Position numbers and translations under genes: made by a program
NCBI RefSeq assembly: GCF_013394165.1
Contig: NZ_CP041331.1
Coordinates: forward strand, 686,890 to 750,889
Source of the DNA: Pseudoalteromonas sp. Scap06
Lineage (GTDB): Bacteria > Pseudomonadota > Gammaproteobacteria > Enterobacterales > Alteromonadaceae
Direction of reading: 5' to 3'
Length of the DNA: 64,000 nucleotides
The notes under the pieces: generated by a model
The model's input: only the letters and a program-made list of their open reading frames with translations
Databases searched by the model: none
What the model was told of the DNA's origin: nothing
In this document: positions 59,241 to 64,000 of the stretch, piece after piece
How positions within the stretch are numbered: position 1 is the first letter of the stretch
Layout of the letters: every line of letters begins with the position of its first letter

Positions 59241-59293
59241 TAACGCCTCAATCAGCCGACGCGTTAGCGGTCTGCTGGATTGATTTGTTAGCA
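59241..59293 (-). other. attC site (cassette of the DUF4386-like gene)
   Basis: On the minus strand it reads from TGCTAACAAATCAATCCAGC to CAGCCGACGCGTTAGCGG (opposite strand) and closes with GAGGCGTTA. Arms GCTGATTGAG and AATCAATCCAGC pair imperfectly, and the outer boxes GCTAAC / GCGTTA are well formed, at about 53 bp. The upstream gene ends inside it. Confidence 0.82.
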
Positions 59294-59931
59294 TTTTCCT
59301 CGGTTAGTAAACATATACCCAACCAAATAAACCAAACAATTTGTGATACGCCAAATATTTCAGTAAATAGTTTGTCAGGATAAACCGTTGCAATGCCCGC
59401 TATGCCTACAAAATATCCGAGATAGTTAAATGACCGGGGTAATCTGCCCTCTTGTATTGCTGCTACGCTAATCAATAGAACCCAAAGTCCGCCAACTAAT
59501 TCATTTCCACCACCTATACTTTCTGTTATCACTGAAACGATTATCCACATATCAAGGGCTTTTTCTGGATTTGCATCCATCAGATCGATTGCATGATCAA
59601 GCCCGATATTCGAAATCATTCCACTTGCGATCACCAGACCGACCCAAATGCCCCCGAATAGAGATCCAATAGTAATTAAGGGATTAACTTTATATTTAAG
59701 CCTCTTATACATACCAATAACGAGTATGGCCAGAAAAATGCCAAACACCACGTACATTAGAAAATAGATCATTGAAAATAGAAGTTGATTTTCTGCCATG
59801 TAAGTCATTTTTTCGACTGGACTACCATCAACCGGATATGACCAAAAAGCCCCAAAATACACAAAGGCTGCTATGTAAATAAGCCCTTGGAAAATTGCTG
59901 CGATACCAGCTAGTTTTTGTAGACCCTTCAT
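59248..59931 (-). CDS. DUF4386-like membrane protein, cassette-borne
   Basis: A 227-residue integral membrane protein with about six helices, starting MKGLQKLAGIAAIFQGLIYI, of the DUF4386 kind; function unknown. The last residues NKSIQQTANASAD are translated from the attC site itself, a known signature of integron cassettes. The start ATG lies ~28 bases after the R' box of the next attC, with little leader, also typical of cassette genes. No ribosome-binding site is evident beyond weak purines. Confidence 0.85.
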   Translation of the reverse strand: MKGLQKLAGIAAIFQGLIYIAAFVYFGAFWSYPVDGSPVEKMTYMAENQLLFSMIYFLMYVVFGIFLAILVIGMYKRLKYKVNPLITIGSLFGGIWVGLVIASGMISNIGLDHAIDLMDANPEKALDMWIIVSVITESIGGGNELVGGLWVLLISVAAIQEGRLPRSFNYLGYFVGIAGIATVYPDKLFTEIFGVSQIVWFIWLGICLLTEENANKSIQQTANASAD

Positions 59932-59959
59932 TTGGCGAAACCCCGTTTGTTGTATTGCT

Positions 59960-60051
59960 AAAACGCCTCATTCAGAGGCAAAAAATTGTTGGCTAAAATA
60001 GTGAACGAAGTGAACAAAAGCCAACTGTTTTTTGTCCGTTTAAGCAACTTG
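59960..60051 (-). other. attC site, part 1 (split by IS110-family element)
   Basis: This is the larger part of an attC. On the minus strand it has CAAGTTGCTTAAACGGAC, the arms AACAGTTGGCTTTTG and TTAGCCAACAATT, and ends TGAATGAGGCGTTTT. The missing start (CATAAC) is found beyond the insertion element at about 61677-61682. Joined, the site matches the layout of the attC at 62061-62166. Confidence 0.8.
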
Positions 60052-60130
60052 ATACTCATTGAGCCTCCTCCCCAGCATCGCGTTTATTCGCTACGCTGAA
60101 AAGGCAACCAACCTTACAGGAGAAAGCTCA

Positions 60131-61174
60131 ATGAACTTTTACAATAACATGCATCCATATTATTGTGGAATCGATTTACATGCCCGATTGCTTTACGTCT
60201 GTATCATTGATAATACAGAACTTATCCTTGTTCACAAGAAAATTAAAGATGACCCAGAAGCACTACTAAAGCTACTTAAACCCTACATTGGCGATATTGT
60301 TGTTGGCGTGGAGTGCATGCATTGCTGGTATTGGGTCGCTGATTTTTGCAAAGAGCACACTATCGACTTTATTCTAGGTCATGCCCTATACATGAAGGCA
60401 ATTCATGGCGGTAAAGCTAAAAACGATAAAATAGATTCGTATAAAATAGCCAAACTTATCCGTGGTGGTAACTTTCCACTCGCTTATGTGTATGACAAAT
60501 ATATTCGTGCTACGCGCGACTTATTACGGCGAAGAACCAAAATTGTTCGTCATGGCGCTGATTTAAAAGCCCATGTAGCCAATACTGCCAGCCAGTACAA
60601 TTTACCTGCCCACAATGTTAACTTAAAGAACGTTTGCGACAGAGAAAAGATGCGCTATTACTTCCCTGATCCCGTTGTGCAACGATCTATTAATTTAAAT
60701 ATGGCCATACTCGATTGCTATCACAATGAGCTTAAGCCTTTAGAGCATTATATTGAACAAATGGCCAAGCAACACAACCCTGTTCACCTTAATATTTTGC
60801 AAACAATTAATGGTATAGGCCGTATTCTTGCAAACACCATTATTTACGAAATTGGTGATATCAATCGCTTTTCAAGCGTACAAAAGTTCGCTTCATACAG
60901 TCGGTTGGTCAAATGCAAAGCGGAGTCTGCTGGCAAAACCTATGGCACCCAAGGTAATAAAATTGGCAATGCACATCTCAAATGGGCTTTCTCGGAAGCT
61001 GCCGTATTACTGCTGCGCCACAATCATAACGCTAACAAATACCTTGAAAAACTACAAAAGCGAATGAGCAAAGCCAAAGCACTGTCAGCGCTTGCGCATA
61101 AGCTTGGTCGCTGTGTTTATTACATGCTTAAAAAAGAGACGGTATTCGATGAAGCAAAATTCTTAAAGAGTTAG
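60131..61174 (+). CDS. IS110-family transposase (DEDD recombinase)
   Basis: A 347-residue transposase. The N-terminal RuvC-like DEDD domain shows Asp in YYCGIDLHARLLYVCI (~15), Glu in VVGVECMHCWYW (~60), and the paired Asp in GGKAKNDKIDSYKIAKL (~105). The C-terminal Transposase_20 domain is visible as LQTINGIGRILANTIIYEIG and FASYSRLVKCKAESAGKTYG. These enzymes move DNA without DDE chemistry and, by recent work on IS110/IS1111, use an element-encoded guide (bridge/seeker) RNA. I chose the ATG at 60131, which has AGGAG 8 bases before it; a TTG at 60059 is in frame. Confidence 0.93.
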   Translation: MNFYNNMHPYYCGIDLHARLLYVCIIDNTELILVHKKIKDDPEALLKLLKPYIGDIVVGVECMHCWYWVADFCKEHTIDFILGHALYMKAIHGGKAKNDKIDSYKIAKLIRGGNFPLAYVYDKYIRATRDLLRRRTKIVRHGADLKAHVANTASQYNLPAHNVNLKNVCDREKMRYYFPDPVVQRSINLNMAILDCYHNELKPLEHYIEQMAKQHNPVHLNILQTINGIGRILANTIIYEIGDINRFSSVQKFASYSRLVKCKAESAGKTYGTQGNKIGNAHLKWAFSEAAVLLLRHNHNANKYLEKLQKRMSKAKALSALAHKLGRCVYYMLKKETVFDEAKFLKS

Positions 61175-61676
61175 TCACGGTACTGAGTGAGCTGAACATC
61201 TAACTGGATTTAAGGCTGAGCATCAATCAATTGGGTGAGTTAATAACCAACAAGGTTTTACCTGATTATATGCCTACAGACCTAAGCCACTTGTCTTGAT
61301 TAGACGCTCAGTACGCGTGCATTAATACAATAAACAAAGTCGCTTACACCTGACTTGATAACTGCGTTACGCACCTTAATCTAACTGGATCATCAAAACC
61401 AGCCGCCTTTAATAGTGCCATGATGAGGTTAACCGATGAATGTCTAGTGCCCCAGCAACCCCAAAAGGATATGGGAAAAACCTGACAGCGATGAGATCGC
61501 AATAAGATATTACTGCGTAACGCACCCTATATGTGTTTGCCGTAAGCTACTTGCTTAACAGCCGTATCGACAGACAAAGTAAACGAATTTGTTTATTGGT
61601 TTAGAATTGACCGTCAATTTATAAAAACGGTCAAAAAGAACATTAATGCCTATTGACAGAGTTAAGGCTCATATGT
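61175..61676 (+). ncRNA. Candidate bridge/seeker RNA region of the IS110-family element
   Basis: About 500 bases of non-coding DNA follow the transposase. IS1111-group elements carry their guide RNA in this right-end region. Local dyads are visible, for example CCCCAGCAACCCC...GGATATGGG near 61450-61481 and GACCGT/ACGGTC near 61610-61632. The octamer TTGCTTAA at 61551 also occurs in the flanking attC on the opposite strand, which could be a guide match or chance. No ORF is supported. Confidence 0.4.
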
Positions 61677-61691
61677 GTTATGTTGAAACTG

Positions 61692-62060: not shown

Positions 62061-62166
62061 ATAACGCCAGCTTAAGCGGACTAAAATAATAGTTGGCTAT
62101 AATTTAGCGAGGAACGAGCGACAAGCCAACTATTATGTGTCCCATTACTTAATGCGCTTGTTATAT
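62061..62166 (-). other. attC site (cassette of the GNAT gene)
   Basis: A complete ~106-bp attC. On the minus strand: ATATAACAAGCGCATTAAG, then ATAATAGTTGGCTTGTCGC, a short centre, TATAGCCAACTATTAT, and CGCTTAAGCTGGCGTTAT. The arms ATAATAGTTGGCT / AGCCAACTATTAT pair perfectly over 13 bases, with outer simple sites at both ends. The acetyltransferase stop codon lies inside the site. Confidence 0.88.
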
Positions 62167-62697: not shown

Positions 62698-62714
62698 TGA
62701 CTTTCCTTTGCTAT

Positions 62715-62782
62715 ATAACGCTTTGCTAAGCGGAAATTAATGGTTGGCTATAATCGCGAAGCGATGGCCAACTGTTAATTTT
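62715..62782 (-). other. attC site, partial (interrupted by IS3-family element)
   Basis: On the minus strand: AACAGTTGGCCATCGCTTCG, then CGATTATAGCCAACCATTAA, and CCGCTTAGCAAAGCGTTATA. The arms AGTTGGC / GCCAACC and the R' box GCGTTAT are present. The R'' end is missing because the IS3-family terminus begins at 62782. Confidence 0.75.
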
Positions 62783-62817
62783 GATCTTCACCCGATAAAG
62801 TGGACACCGTCCACGTT

Positions 62818-63705
62818 TCAATTAACTGCCAATTCAAACTCGGCAGGTGATTTATATCCTAAACTCGAATGCAATCTCTGTCTATTGTAAAAATAATTTA
62901 GGTAAACCTTTAATTTTGATAATAGTTTACCGCTGCTCTCAAATTTATTTCCTCGAATTAAATCTGCTTTAAGCGAATGAAAGAACGACTCGACTTCTGC
63001 GTTGTCAGTACAGCACCCAGGCCTATTCATACTGGCTTTGATGTTTTTGCTAGCCAAATACTTTTGTACAACGTGAGCACGGTATTCTGCGCCTCGGTCA
63101 GTGTGAAATAATACACTCTCTGTTGGCTGTCGTTTCTTTATCGCAAGCCTTAGCGCCTTTAACGTAAGGTCTGTTGTTTTGTTTTTACCAAACGCCCAGC
63201 CGATTACTCGACGTGAATATAAGTCGATAACCACAGCAAGGTAATGCCAACGAGCGCCGACTTTTAAATACGTAATATCGCCAGACCATTGCTGATTGAT
63301 CCCCGTGGCCTTTTCACTATCTTTGCGTTTGTTTTCTATCTCTTTATAAAAGAACTTCACCTTCGCCGGTTTGCTGTAAGTCTTAAGGGCTCTGGCTCTT
63401 AAACCGTTTTCTCGCATTAAGCGGGCAACACGTTTTTGGCTTGTGTTTATACCTTCTTTTTTTAGCGCATGAAATACGCGTGGGCTACCATAGGTTTGAT
63501 GATTTACATTGAAAACGTGCTTTATCTTCAACAACATATTAGCATCTGACAGCGCTCTAGCTGACACTGTTCTGTCACGCCAAGCATAAAACCCACTACG
63601 CGAAACATTAAGCCAAGAACACAAGTATTTTACACCTAAGGCTTGTCCGAATTTTTGGATGAATCCAAATCGTTCTGATGTACTTCCGCCAGATACCGTT
63701 GCCAC
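62818..63705 (-). CDS. IS3-family transposase OrfB (DDE)
   Basis: The ~295-residue catalytic part of an IS3-family transposase. A HTH_21 region (HQTYGSPRVFHALKKEGINT) is followed by the rve integrase core: Asp in QWSGDITYLKVG, Asp in LFHTDRGAEY and Glu in NAEVESFFHSLK (D-D-35-E). It is probably not started independently: it is in the -1 frame relative to orfA and overlaps it by 70 bases, with A6G at the junction, so the active product is an OrfAB fusion. Confidence 0.93.
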   Translation of the reverse strand: MATVSGGSTSERFGFIQKFGQALGVKYLCSWLNVSRSGFYAWRDRTVSARALSDANMLLKIKHVFNVNHQTYGSPRVFHALKKEGINTSQKRVARLMRENGLRARALKTYSKPAKVKFFYKEIENKRKDSEKATGINQQWSGDITYLKVGARWHYLAVVIDLYSRRVIGWAFGKNKTTDLTLKALRLAIKKRQPTESVLFHTDRGAEYRAHVVQKYLASKNIKASMNRPGCCTDNAEVESFFHSLKADLIRGNKFESSGKLLSKLKVYLNYFYNRQRLHSSLGYKSPAEFELAVN

Positions 63706-64000
63706 TTTTTTAGCAGGTCATTCTCCTGCTTAAGACGCTCATTTTCTTTCTTAAGCTTTTGAATGTTATCCAGCTCTTTTTTTGTTGGGAATTTACTCAT
63801 TGTTTCATTGTTGCTTTGATAGCGCGGTACGTTTTTAAACTTACCTTCTCGATACTCTTTTCGCCAACGACTCAGCATTAACGGATGAATATTTAGCGCC
63901 TCGGCAACGTCCTTTGACATGACATCGTCTCGTAAGCTTAGTTCGACTGCTTTGATTTTAAAATTAACTGGGTAAAACCATGTCTTTCTAGGTTGGGTAT
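63636..64000 (-). CDS. IS3-family OrfA (5' end outside window)
   Basis: The frame is open to the window edge and reads TQPRKTWFYPVNFKIKAVEL, then MSKDVAEALNIHPLMLSRWR: the helix-turn-helix HTH_8/Tnp_1 DNA-binding domain of IS3 OrfA. A leucine-zipper-like coiled coil follows (IQKLKKENERLKQENDLLKK). An internal ATG at 63920 exists, but homology continues upstream of it, so the true start is beyond the window. The frame ends at 63636 after the frameshift site. Confidence 0.9.
   Translation of the reverse strand, partial: TQPRKTWFYPVNFKIKAVELSLRDDVMSKDVAEALNIHPLMLSRWRKEYREGKFKNVPRYQSNNETMSKFPTKKELDNIQKLKKENERLKQENDLLKKWQRYLAEVHQNDLDSSKNSDKP
63705..63711 (-). promoter_or_regulatory. Programmed -1 frameshift site A6G
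   Basis: Minus-strand AAAAAAG in the orfA Lys-Lys codons (LLKK), just where orfB's frame takes over, is the usual slippery heptamer of IS3-family elements and allows an OrfAB fusion. Confidence 0.85.

Follow-up and report, generated by a model that had tools for sequence, protein, structure and literature searches.

Insertion sequences of the IS1111 family that insert into attC sites make up a known group (ISPst6, ISKpn4 and ISPa25), reportedly described by Tetu and Holmes in 2008 and by Post and Hall in 2009. ISKpn4 and ISPst6 target attC with seekRNAs, which have been found experimentally in these two elements as well as in ISEc11 and ISPa11; a seekRNA is 70-100 nt long, with a longer RNA of about 150 nt, and the same target matches are common to ISKpn4 and ISPst6 and, by prediction, to ISPa25 (PMC11187229). 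According to Durrant et al. a bridge RNA is predicted for 93% of IS1111 elements, in most cases at the right end (PMC11208160). Since the ISKpn4 and ISPst6 work is the earlier, the principle of an RNA-using IS1111 element that targets attC is not new. The element described here, found in a 64,000-nucleotide stretch of the Pseudoalteromonas sp. Scap06 genome (the window), resembles this group in its family, in having attC as target at one end, in its fixed position and orientation and in its downstream non-coding region, but it belongs to a marine lineage, set apart from ISKpn4, ISPst6 and ISPa25 by descriptions and not by sequence. Apparently new are this lineage, its longer conserved RNA, and the variation of its guides between close relatives, with a fit to different variants of attC; a literature search of incomplete coverage gave no account of guides varying among elements that target attC, which is no proof of absence. 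From the comparisons below we put the probability at about 0.88 that we are dealing with an IS1111-family insertion sequence that chooses attC sites through an RNA which it encodes itself.

The element is intact and 1626 bp long, and both junctions can be read directly, the left one as GTCCGTTTAAGCAACTT|GATACTCATTGAGCCT (i.e. ...GCAACTT followed by GATACTCATTGAGCCT) and the right one as AGGCTCATATGT|GTTATG. One G is common to both junctions and the unit is therefore 60051-61676 or equally 60052-61677, with no target duplication at the junctions of 60051-61676. A first-pass annotation of the same DNA had proposed a precise attC insertion at 60052-61676; the precise insertion stands, while these boundaries leave one G too many. 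The subterminal repeats that it pointed out are found in the sequence at both ends (Table 1), and its DEDD transposase carries both IS110/IS1111 Pfam domains (DEDD_Tnp_IS110, 3.8e-16; the C-terminal Transposase_20, 3.3e-20) and passes the NCBIfam model NF033542 “IS110 family RNA-guided transposase” with 216 bits against a cut-off of 140. The non-coding right end, given as some 500 bases, measures 502 nt past the transposase stop (61175-61676) compared to 80 nt upstream, a trait of the IS1111 family. At the position of the C-terminal IS1111 motif GL-P----S(T)G (PMC11187229) the lineage shows RLVKCKAESAG, with the serine retained; L062, whose frame has an internal stop, is not part of this protein alignment. 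Of 8000 candidates scored in a protein search, the best 120 had E<=1e-20 throughout; every named relative with a 94-98% identical transposase is a Pseudoalteromonas, and an IS110-family transposase of a P. aeruginosa plasmid shows 34% identity to the one in the window.

Table 1 Features of the IS1111-type element and its insertion site, in window positions.
Feature	Position	Strand	Basis
Whole IS1111-type element, 1626 bp, intact	60051..61676	+	Junctions; like end motifs at 63 distinct sites, the motifs being the recognition criterion
Left end GATACTCATTGAGCCT, with the -10 half of the predicted circle-junction promoter and the left subterminal repeat TGAGCCT (60060-60066)	60051..60066	+	Sequence and comparison of ends
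DEDD transposase of 347 aa with its catalytic motifs, free of internal stops	60131..61174	+	Domains and alignment
Basal stem of the target-loop domain, 5' strand, 14 bp; pairs with 61305-61319, 61315 unpaired	61176..61189	+	98.3% of cells paired; changes on both sides in 11 of 14 pairs, 34 sequences
5' guide ATCTAAC; CTAAC would pair with top-strand GTTAG (right target half), 4 of 5 fit at the window site	61198..61204	+	Position and complementarity, no covariation signal of its own
3' guide TGTCTTG, equal to the left target half; CTTG fits the window site	61292..61298	+	Covariation with target -3, -4 and -5
Basal stem, 3' strand	61305..61319	+	Covariation as for 61176-61189
Long-range stem closing the second domain, 5' strand; pairs with 61542-61548, one mismatch in the window copy	61341..61347	+	Covarying pairs, 97.5% paired in 34 sequences, no shuffle control
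Second, target-like loop (CTAAC ... CCTTTAATAG); 3' strand diverged, CCTTT versus CCTTG or similar in most	61379..61417	+	Sequence comparison
Candidate 5' donor guide GATGAATGTC; would pair with GATACTCAT of the left end, with one wobble and save for one mismatch	61435..61444	+	Comparison by eye
Candidate 3' donor guide ATATGTG, equal to the right end plus the common G	61529..61535	+	Right-end -3 (T/G) covaries
Predicted circle-junction promoter, -35 half TTGACA; in the circle GATACT follows after 18 nt	61653..61658	+	TTGA-type hexamers in relatives
Right subterminal repeat AGGCTCA	61665..61671	+	Read in the sequence
Interrupted attC, left part (cassette orientation)	59962..60050	-	Homologues without insertion elsewhere in the genus
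R'' remainder of the interrupted attC (GTTATGT on +)	61677..61683	-	Junction and empty-site comparison
Neighbouring uninterrupted attC, the comparison site of the first-pass annotation	62061..62166	-	Sequence

The insertion point is the R'' end of a Pseudoalteromonas attC, and since the cassette genes are on the - strand the insertion cuts R'' off from L'' and the element points in the direction opposite to the cassettes. The interrupted attC of the first-pass annotation is real, as uninterrupted copies exist elsewhere in the genus. An 804-bp query (59248-60051) gave matches in 103 of 108 genomes of the genus, and among the matches listed nearly all fall in the last 90-100 bases, which are the attC, many of them stopping at the insertion point. 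When 40 homologous places were fetched, 31 continued as TT|GTTA and the remaining nine differed, three of them through group II introns; at five places (L181, L187, L194, L200 and L205) the window's own GTCCGTTTAAGCAACTT precedes TT|GTTA, which is the empty site. The attC core of the genus is uniform, with TT|GTTA in 31/31 and C at -3 in 29/31, and the right-hand cassette of the interrupted attC gave one match of 27 bases only in the 107 other genomes.

Other mobile elements were seen in attC sites along the way. The three group II introns (L213, L214 and L215, in attCs of G423, G186 and G255; Rfam RF02001/RF01998) lie, as we read them, no more than two bases from where the IS1111 element is inserted, in agreement with the published TTGT/T rule, and on that reading two unrelated RNA-using elements, a group II intron and an IS1111 element, occupy one attC spot. 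An IS3-type element with two open reading frames, its family assigned by look, is located at 62785-63920 in the window and interrupts an attC at about 62700-62790; a sequence with the same TGATCTTCACCCGATAAAGTGG end interrupts, at almost the same point, another attC of this genome (L210, about 1744 kb on C1). Two tyrosine-recombinase matches in frames of 339-341 aa (G000:C2:591051 and G000:C1:1526556) are far from the cassette cluster of the window; they could be integron integrases, and if so the cluster has no integrase of its own.

The host genome (two contigs) holds one full copy of the element and one 233-bp copy with both ends, and although the string YTTGTTA occurs 1942 times in this genome both occupy attC-like sites. 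The 233-bp derivative (L002 1378-1610; G000:C1:1667554-1667786) lacks transposase and guide RNA, is found at the attC-like half site GGCTT|GTTAGC, and presumably moved in trans. Seven cut-down copies in the genus (L150-L156) have kept the right end and lost the left part, with 122 to about 1480 bp remaining, and GTTA still adjoins the right end in the six that were examined for it (L150-L152 and L154-L156); another shortened copy (L157) has kept the left end instead.

For the wider comparison, 80 of 175 relatives were kept from one search and another search matched 53 of 395 genomes, giving 30 loci. Of 95 loci with a long enough transposase match, 73 had variants of the subterminal repeats at both ends, these motifs being the search criterion and many of the other loci being cut by contig ends, and 63 distinct sites were left after removal of identical flanks. 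A search for inverted repeats had returned mostly chance repeats as element ends and was replaced by the end motifs. With a right-end filter that admitted only GTT or GTGTG after the end, TT|GTTA was found at 59 of the 63 sites (departures in L048, GTTG; L054, GTTT; L081, GTGT; and L104, CCT before) and T|GT at all 63, while a pyrimidine was present at -3 in 57/60. Removal of the filter only brought up one spurious match and inner tandem copies; in L068, where the motif missed the right end, the next bases are ATTA.

Enough left flank for an attC test was available at 59 of these 63 sites (not L023, L084, L085 and L090). The hallmarks of the window attCs, AACGY together with GTC, were present at 37/59 occupied sites and at 1/71 background sites, the latter being YTTGTTA sites in the non-array DNA of our own genome and the former coming from many genera. 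The occupied sites also fold better than this background (mean -17.5 versus -9.6 kcal/mol, 59 versus 71 sites, p=2e-13), and the difference persists when only the ten sites of Pseudoalteromonas elements are used (p=6e-5). Eight sites lack both AACGY and RTC; three of these (L075, L105 and L081) fold among the best 7% of the background and L067 among the best 13%, which leaves four sites with neither hallmark nor stable hairpin (L072, L092, L097 and L113). The preference for attC is thus strong, not absolute, and the objection considered in the first-pass annotation, that other copies might sit at unrelated targets, does not apply to most copies. Two other detectors were discarded. A Smith-Waterman local palindrome score gave no separation (mean z 1.35 for occupied and 0.89 for control sites) because many control sites are attC-like themselves, and was replaced by the motif counts and folding energy; the pattern GTCC-N9-13-YTTGTTA had 15 matches versus 34 for its reversed control and is therefore unusable as a genome-wide attC count.

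Insertions elsewhere might be equally frequent and be lost by selection, so that the attC preference would mostly reflect survival. The seven-base core is common and insertions into attC are likely harmless, both of which would suit this explanation, but intergenic YTTGTTA strings very likely outnumber the attCs in such a genome, and still only the four sites above are without an attC sign. We find such a filtering by selection rather improbable as the main cause.

The right end was analyzed for conserved structure in 34 sequences, obtained by thinning at 90% identity and aligned over the first part of the right ends. RNAalifold returned a 14-bp stem with compensatory changes in 11 pairs; this helix is 98.3% paired, and a 3-bp inner helix above the loop 86.3%. 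Taken together the two helices have 96.2% of cells paired versus 78.3% in shuffled alignments, 105 changes on both sides versus 25.9, and a covariation score of 0.590 versus 0.219, none of the 500 shuffles being as high in any of the three, and 12 pairs with a change on both sides versus 9.6, reached in 13 of 500 shuffles. Sliding the stem partner by 1-3 columns lowers the pairing to 26-43%, and the single sequence of the window folds with z = -2.7. A scan of the whole right end, run without shuffle control, listed further covarying helices (61220-61223/61270-61273 and 61348-61352/61425-61429), covarying hairpins (61452-61485, 61488-61500, 61539-61562 and about 61605-61635) and the long-range stem in Table 1, which uses bases in common with the 61539-61562 hairpin, making the two mutually exclusive. 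No Rfam family matched between 55000 and 64000. These data support the view that the right end encodes a structured guide RNA, and a fold of 61175-61676 was indeed what the first-pass annotation had looked to; its other objection, the lack of a predicted structured RNA from the right end, does not hold. Compared to the 70-100 nt of seekRNAs (PMC11187229) the right end of this lineage is conserved as structure over about 450 nt. Its first domain resembles the bridge RNAs (PMC11208160) in having a target loop with two facing guides, while the second domain, unlike in bridge RNAs, contains another target-like loop; its pattern, CTAAC...CTTGAATAG, is near-identical to that of the target loop and is present in most of the aligned elements.

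Within the first stem CTAAC on the 5' side faces NNNYTTG on the 3' side, and the match to the top strand comes 5' of the match to the bottom strand, as in the seekRNAs of ISKpn4 and ISPst6. The guides could be compared with their own targets at 57 sites (excluded were L084, L085 and L090, with no flank, L086 and L106, with no guide found, and L064, with a short right flank). The 3' guide has on average 3.19 matches to its own target over -9..-3, where 2.29 are expected (p=5e-5). By position the observed and expected match frequencies are 0.877 and 0.498 at -3, 0.526 and 0.254 at -4, 0.579 and 0.41 at -5, and 0.474 and 0.384 at -6, with no signal at -7 to -9 in these 57 sites. When each of the 36 distinct guides is represented by one site, the median for -7..-3 is p=5e-4. 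Of 735 alignment columns, 465 have at least 40 letters; scanned against each target position, these give columns 170, 169 and 168, adjacent and in order, as the best for -3, -4 and -5, whereas at -6 the expected guide column is only 18th of 465. The 5' guide shows no covariation with the target at +5..+7 (p=0.09), and this strand hardly varies.

If the transposase protein recognized attC, and the right end were conserved for a promoter, for the ends or the like, the core target should be common to the elements even where the guides differ at -4 to -6, as it is. However, it is non-coding columns that covary in register with the target, and they do so between sisters with nearly identical transposases: in Marinobacter the transposases of L108 and L109/L112 are 96% identical, and the guides GCT and GAC are found at GCT and GAC sites. 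We therefore hold recognition by the protein to be barely credible.

The covariation might also be an artefact of relatedness, where the attC consensus is particular to each host and the element does no more than resemble it. The attC cores of Pseudoalteromonas are alike, as seen above, and the 3' strand of the second loop, which is not necessarily a guide, passes the test over all sites as well (2.45 versus 1.93, p=3e-4, mainly from -3, 0.75 versus 0.49, and -4, 0.375 versus 0.228). With one site for each of its 32 distinct guides the second loop drops to p=0.07 for -7..-3 and p=0.40 for -7..-4, which leaves it no more than a possible second target guide; relatedness alone can thus lift the all-sites test, and only the first loop passes both. 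Against the artefact speaks a comparison with unoccupied attC-like sites of the same locus over -6..-3, which included L064. The own site has a mean of 2.47 matches of 4 (58 elements), while 76 unoccupied control sites have 1.20; paired by element (36), 27 are up, 3 down and 6 equal (p=1.8e-5), and by distinct guide (25) p=3.6e-4. Among 51 non-independent pairs of sisters with different guides and at least 85% identical transposases, the own guide fits better in 32, the swapped guide in 5, and 14 are ties. The distinct-guide and sister tests thus keep the same direction, and we consider relatedness a very unlikely source of the signal. Collectively, the unoccupied sites of the same locus, the sisters and the 96% identical Marinobacter transposases support in-register covariation of the 3' guide with the left target half, and together with the covarying stem they lend comparative support to the idea, put forward in the first-pass annotation, that the element encodes an RNA recognizing attC. 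Guides that differ within the lineage stand in contrast to the identical matches of ISKpn4 and ISPst6 (PMC11187229).

The first-pass annotation suggested looking for guide loops matching the flanks, and in the window copy CTTG on the left and GTTA on the right are matched, not AGCAACTTG as a whole: the guide TGTCTTG fits the site GCAACTTG at CTTG only, and CTAAC fits GTTAT at four of five bases. The contiguous match is seven bases (CTTGTTA), which is the commonest value (19/57 sites, range 5-12). With a seven-base match and 1942 YTTGTTA strings in the genome, the guide match alone cannot explain the attC preference of the window copy, and some other factor must favour attC, perhaps the attC hairpin or survival. 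In one alternative the folded hairpin is the main target and the RNA adds only a short YTTG/GTTA check. Such a role fits the better folding of the occupied sites and the fact that YTTGTTA by itself is far too common. Since attCs are foldable by nature, that folding is possibly a by-product. Moreover, the four sites without hallmark or stable hairpin are occupied, three of them with 9-10 contiguous guide matches, where the median for the other 53 sites is 8. A precedent does exist, as group IIC-attC introns enter R'' at TTGT/T via the hairpin of the attC bottom strand (PMC7923331). All in all we regard the hairpin as main target as unlikely, albeit the most serious of the alternatives. The introns share with our element the R'' spot (TTGT/T and TT|GTT), an orientation opposite to the cassettes and a target chosen by RNA, but they are retroelements with a reverse transcriptase and a ribozyme, whereas the transposase of the window element is of the DEDD type and Rfam gave no intron there.

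On the donor side, the joined ends would read CATATG-TG-ATACTC in a circle. For the candidate 5' donor guide, L082 is the sole element with G at the corresponding left-end position and has the matching C, while a scan showed no covariation of the GATGAATGTC region with other left-end variants. For the 3' candidate, one clade with the right end ATAGGT has ATAGGTG in the RNA (identity 1.00 versus 0.85 expected), a change that is probably one evolutionary event. Both candidates are suggestive only; in IS1111 bridge RNAs donor-matching letters are held in a multiloop (PMC11208160). In 58 of 63 elements a TTGA-type hexamer precedes the junction by 17-18 nt, and it is missing in the other five; a junction promoter is known from ISEc11, judging from the title of a reference in PMC11187229.

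Ends, targets, stem covariation and guide-target covariation are direct observations, and the remaining steps of the following model are predicted around them. The element would excise as a circle whose joined ends form the promoter TTGACA-18-GATACT, and this promoter would drive the transposase and, after it, the right end, whose RNA would fold into two domains. The first would hold two short facing strands in a loop, where CTAAC on the 5' side would pair with the top strand of the right target half (GTTAG) and NNNYTTG on the 3' side with the left half, on its bottom strand. The donor would be held by the second domain through matches to the element's own ends, and the DEDD transposase would bind and exchange strands at the shared TG. 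With TTGTTA at the R'' end of these attCs and CGTT at the other, insertion would take place at R'' and in one orientation. The variable attC bases at -4 and -5, and perhaps -6, would also be read by the guide, and since lineages differ in their guide letters at -4/-5, each would prefer some attCs over others. More speculatively, and as part of the idea put forward below, the second target-like loop might enable a single element to use attCs of two classes. In one metagenome-assembled genome, copies L052 and L053 both show T at -3 in their first loop but C in their second, and they are found at a C and a T site; against this reading, in L054 of that assembly both loops have T and the site has C.

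We tentatively propose, as an idea with somewhat less than even odds, that evolution of the guide RNA allows a large lineage of mobile elements specialized on integrons to sample the variable attC bases, and that close relatives a few guide letters apart divide the attC repertoire between them. The question raised is how a seven-base match finds attC among about 2000 similar strings. The elements constitute a natural data set in which guide and target letters co-vary within one target class, so that part of an IS1111 guide (here -5 to -3) can be read base by base from genomes, and they suggest how an RNA-guided element may live off a variable recombination site, by keeping a fixed core and varying the rest.
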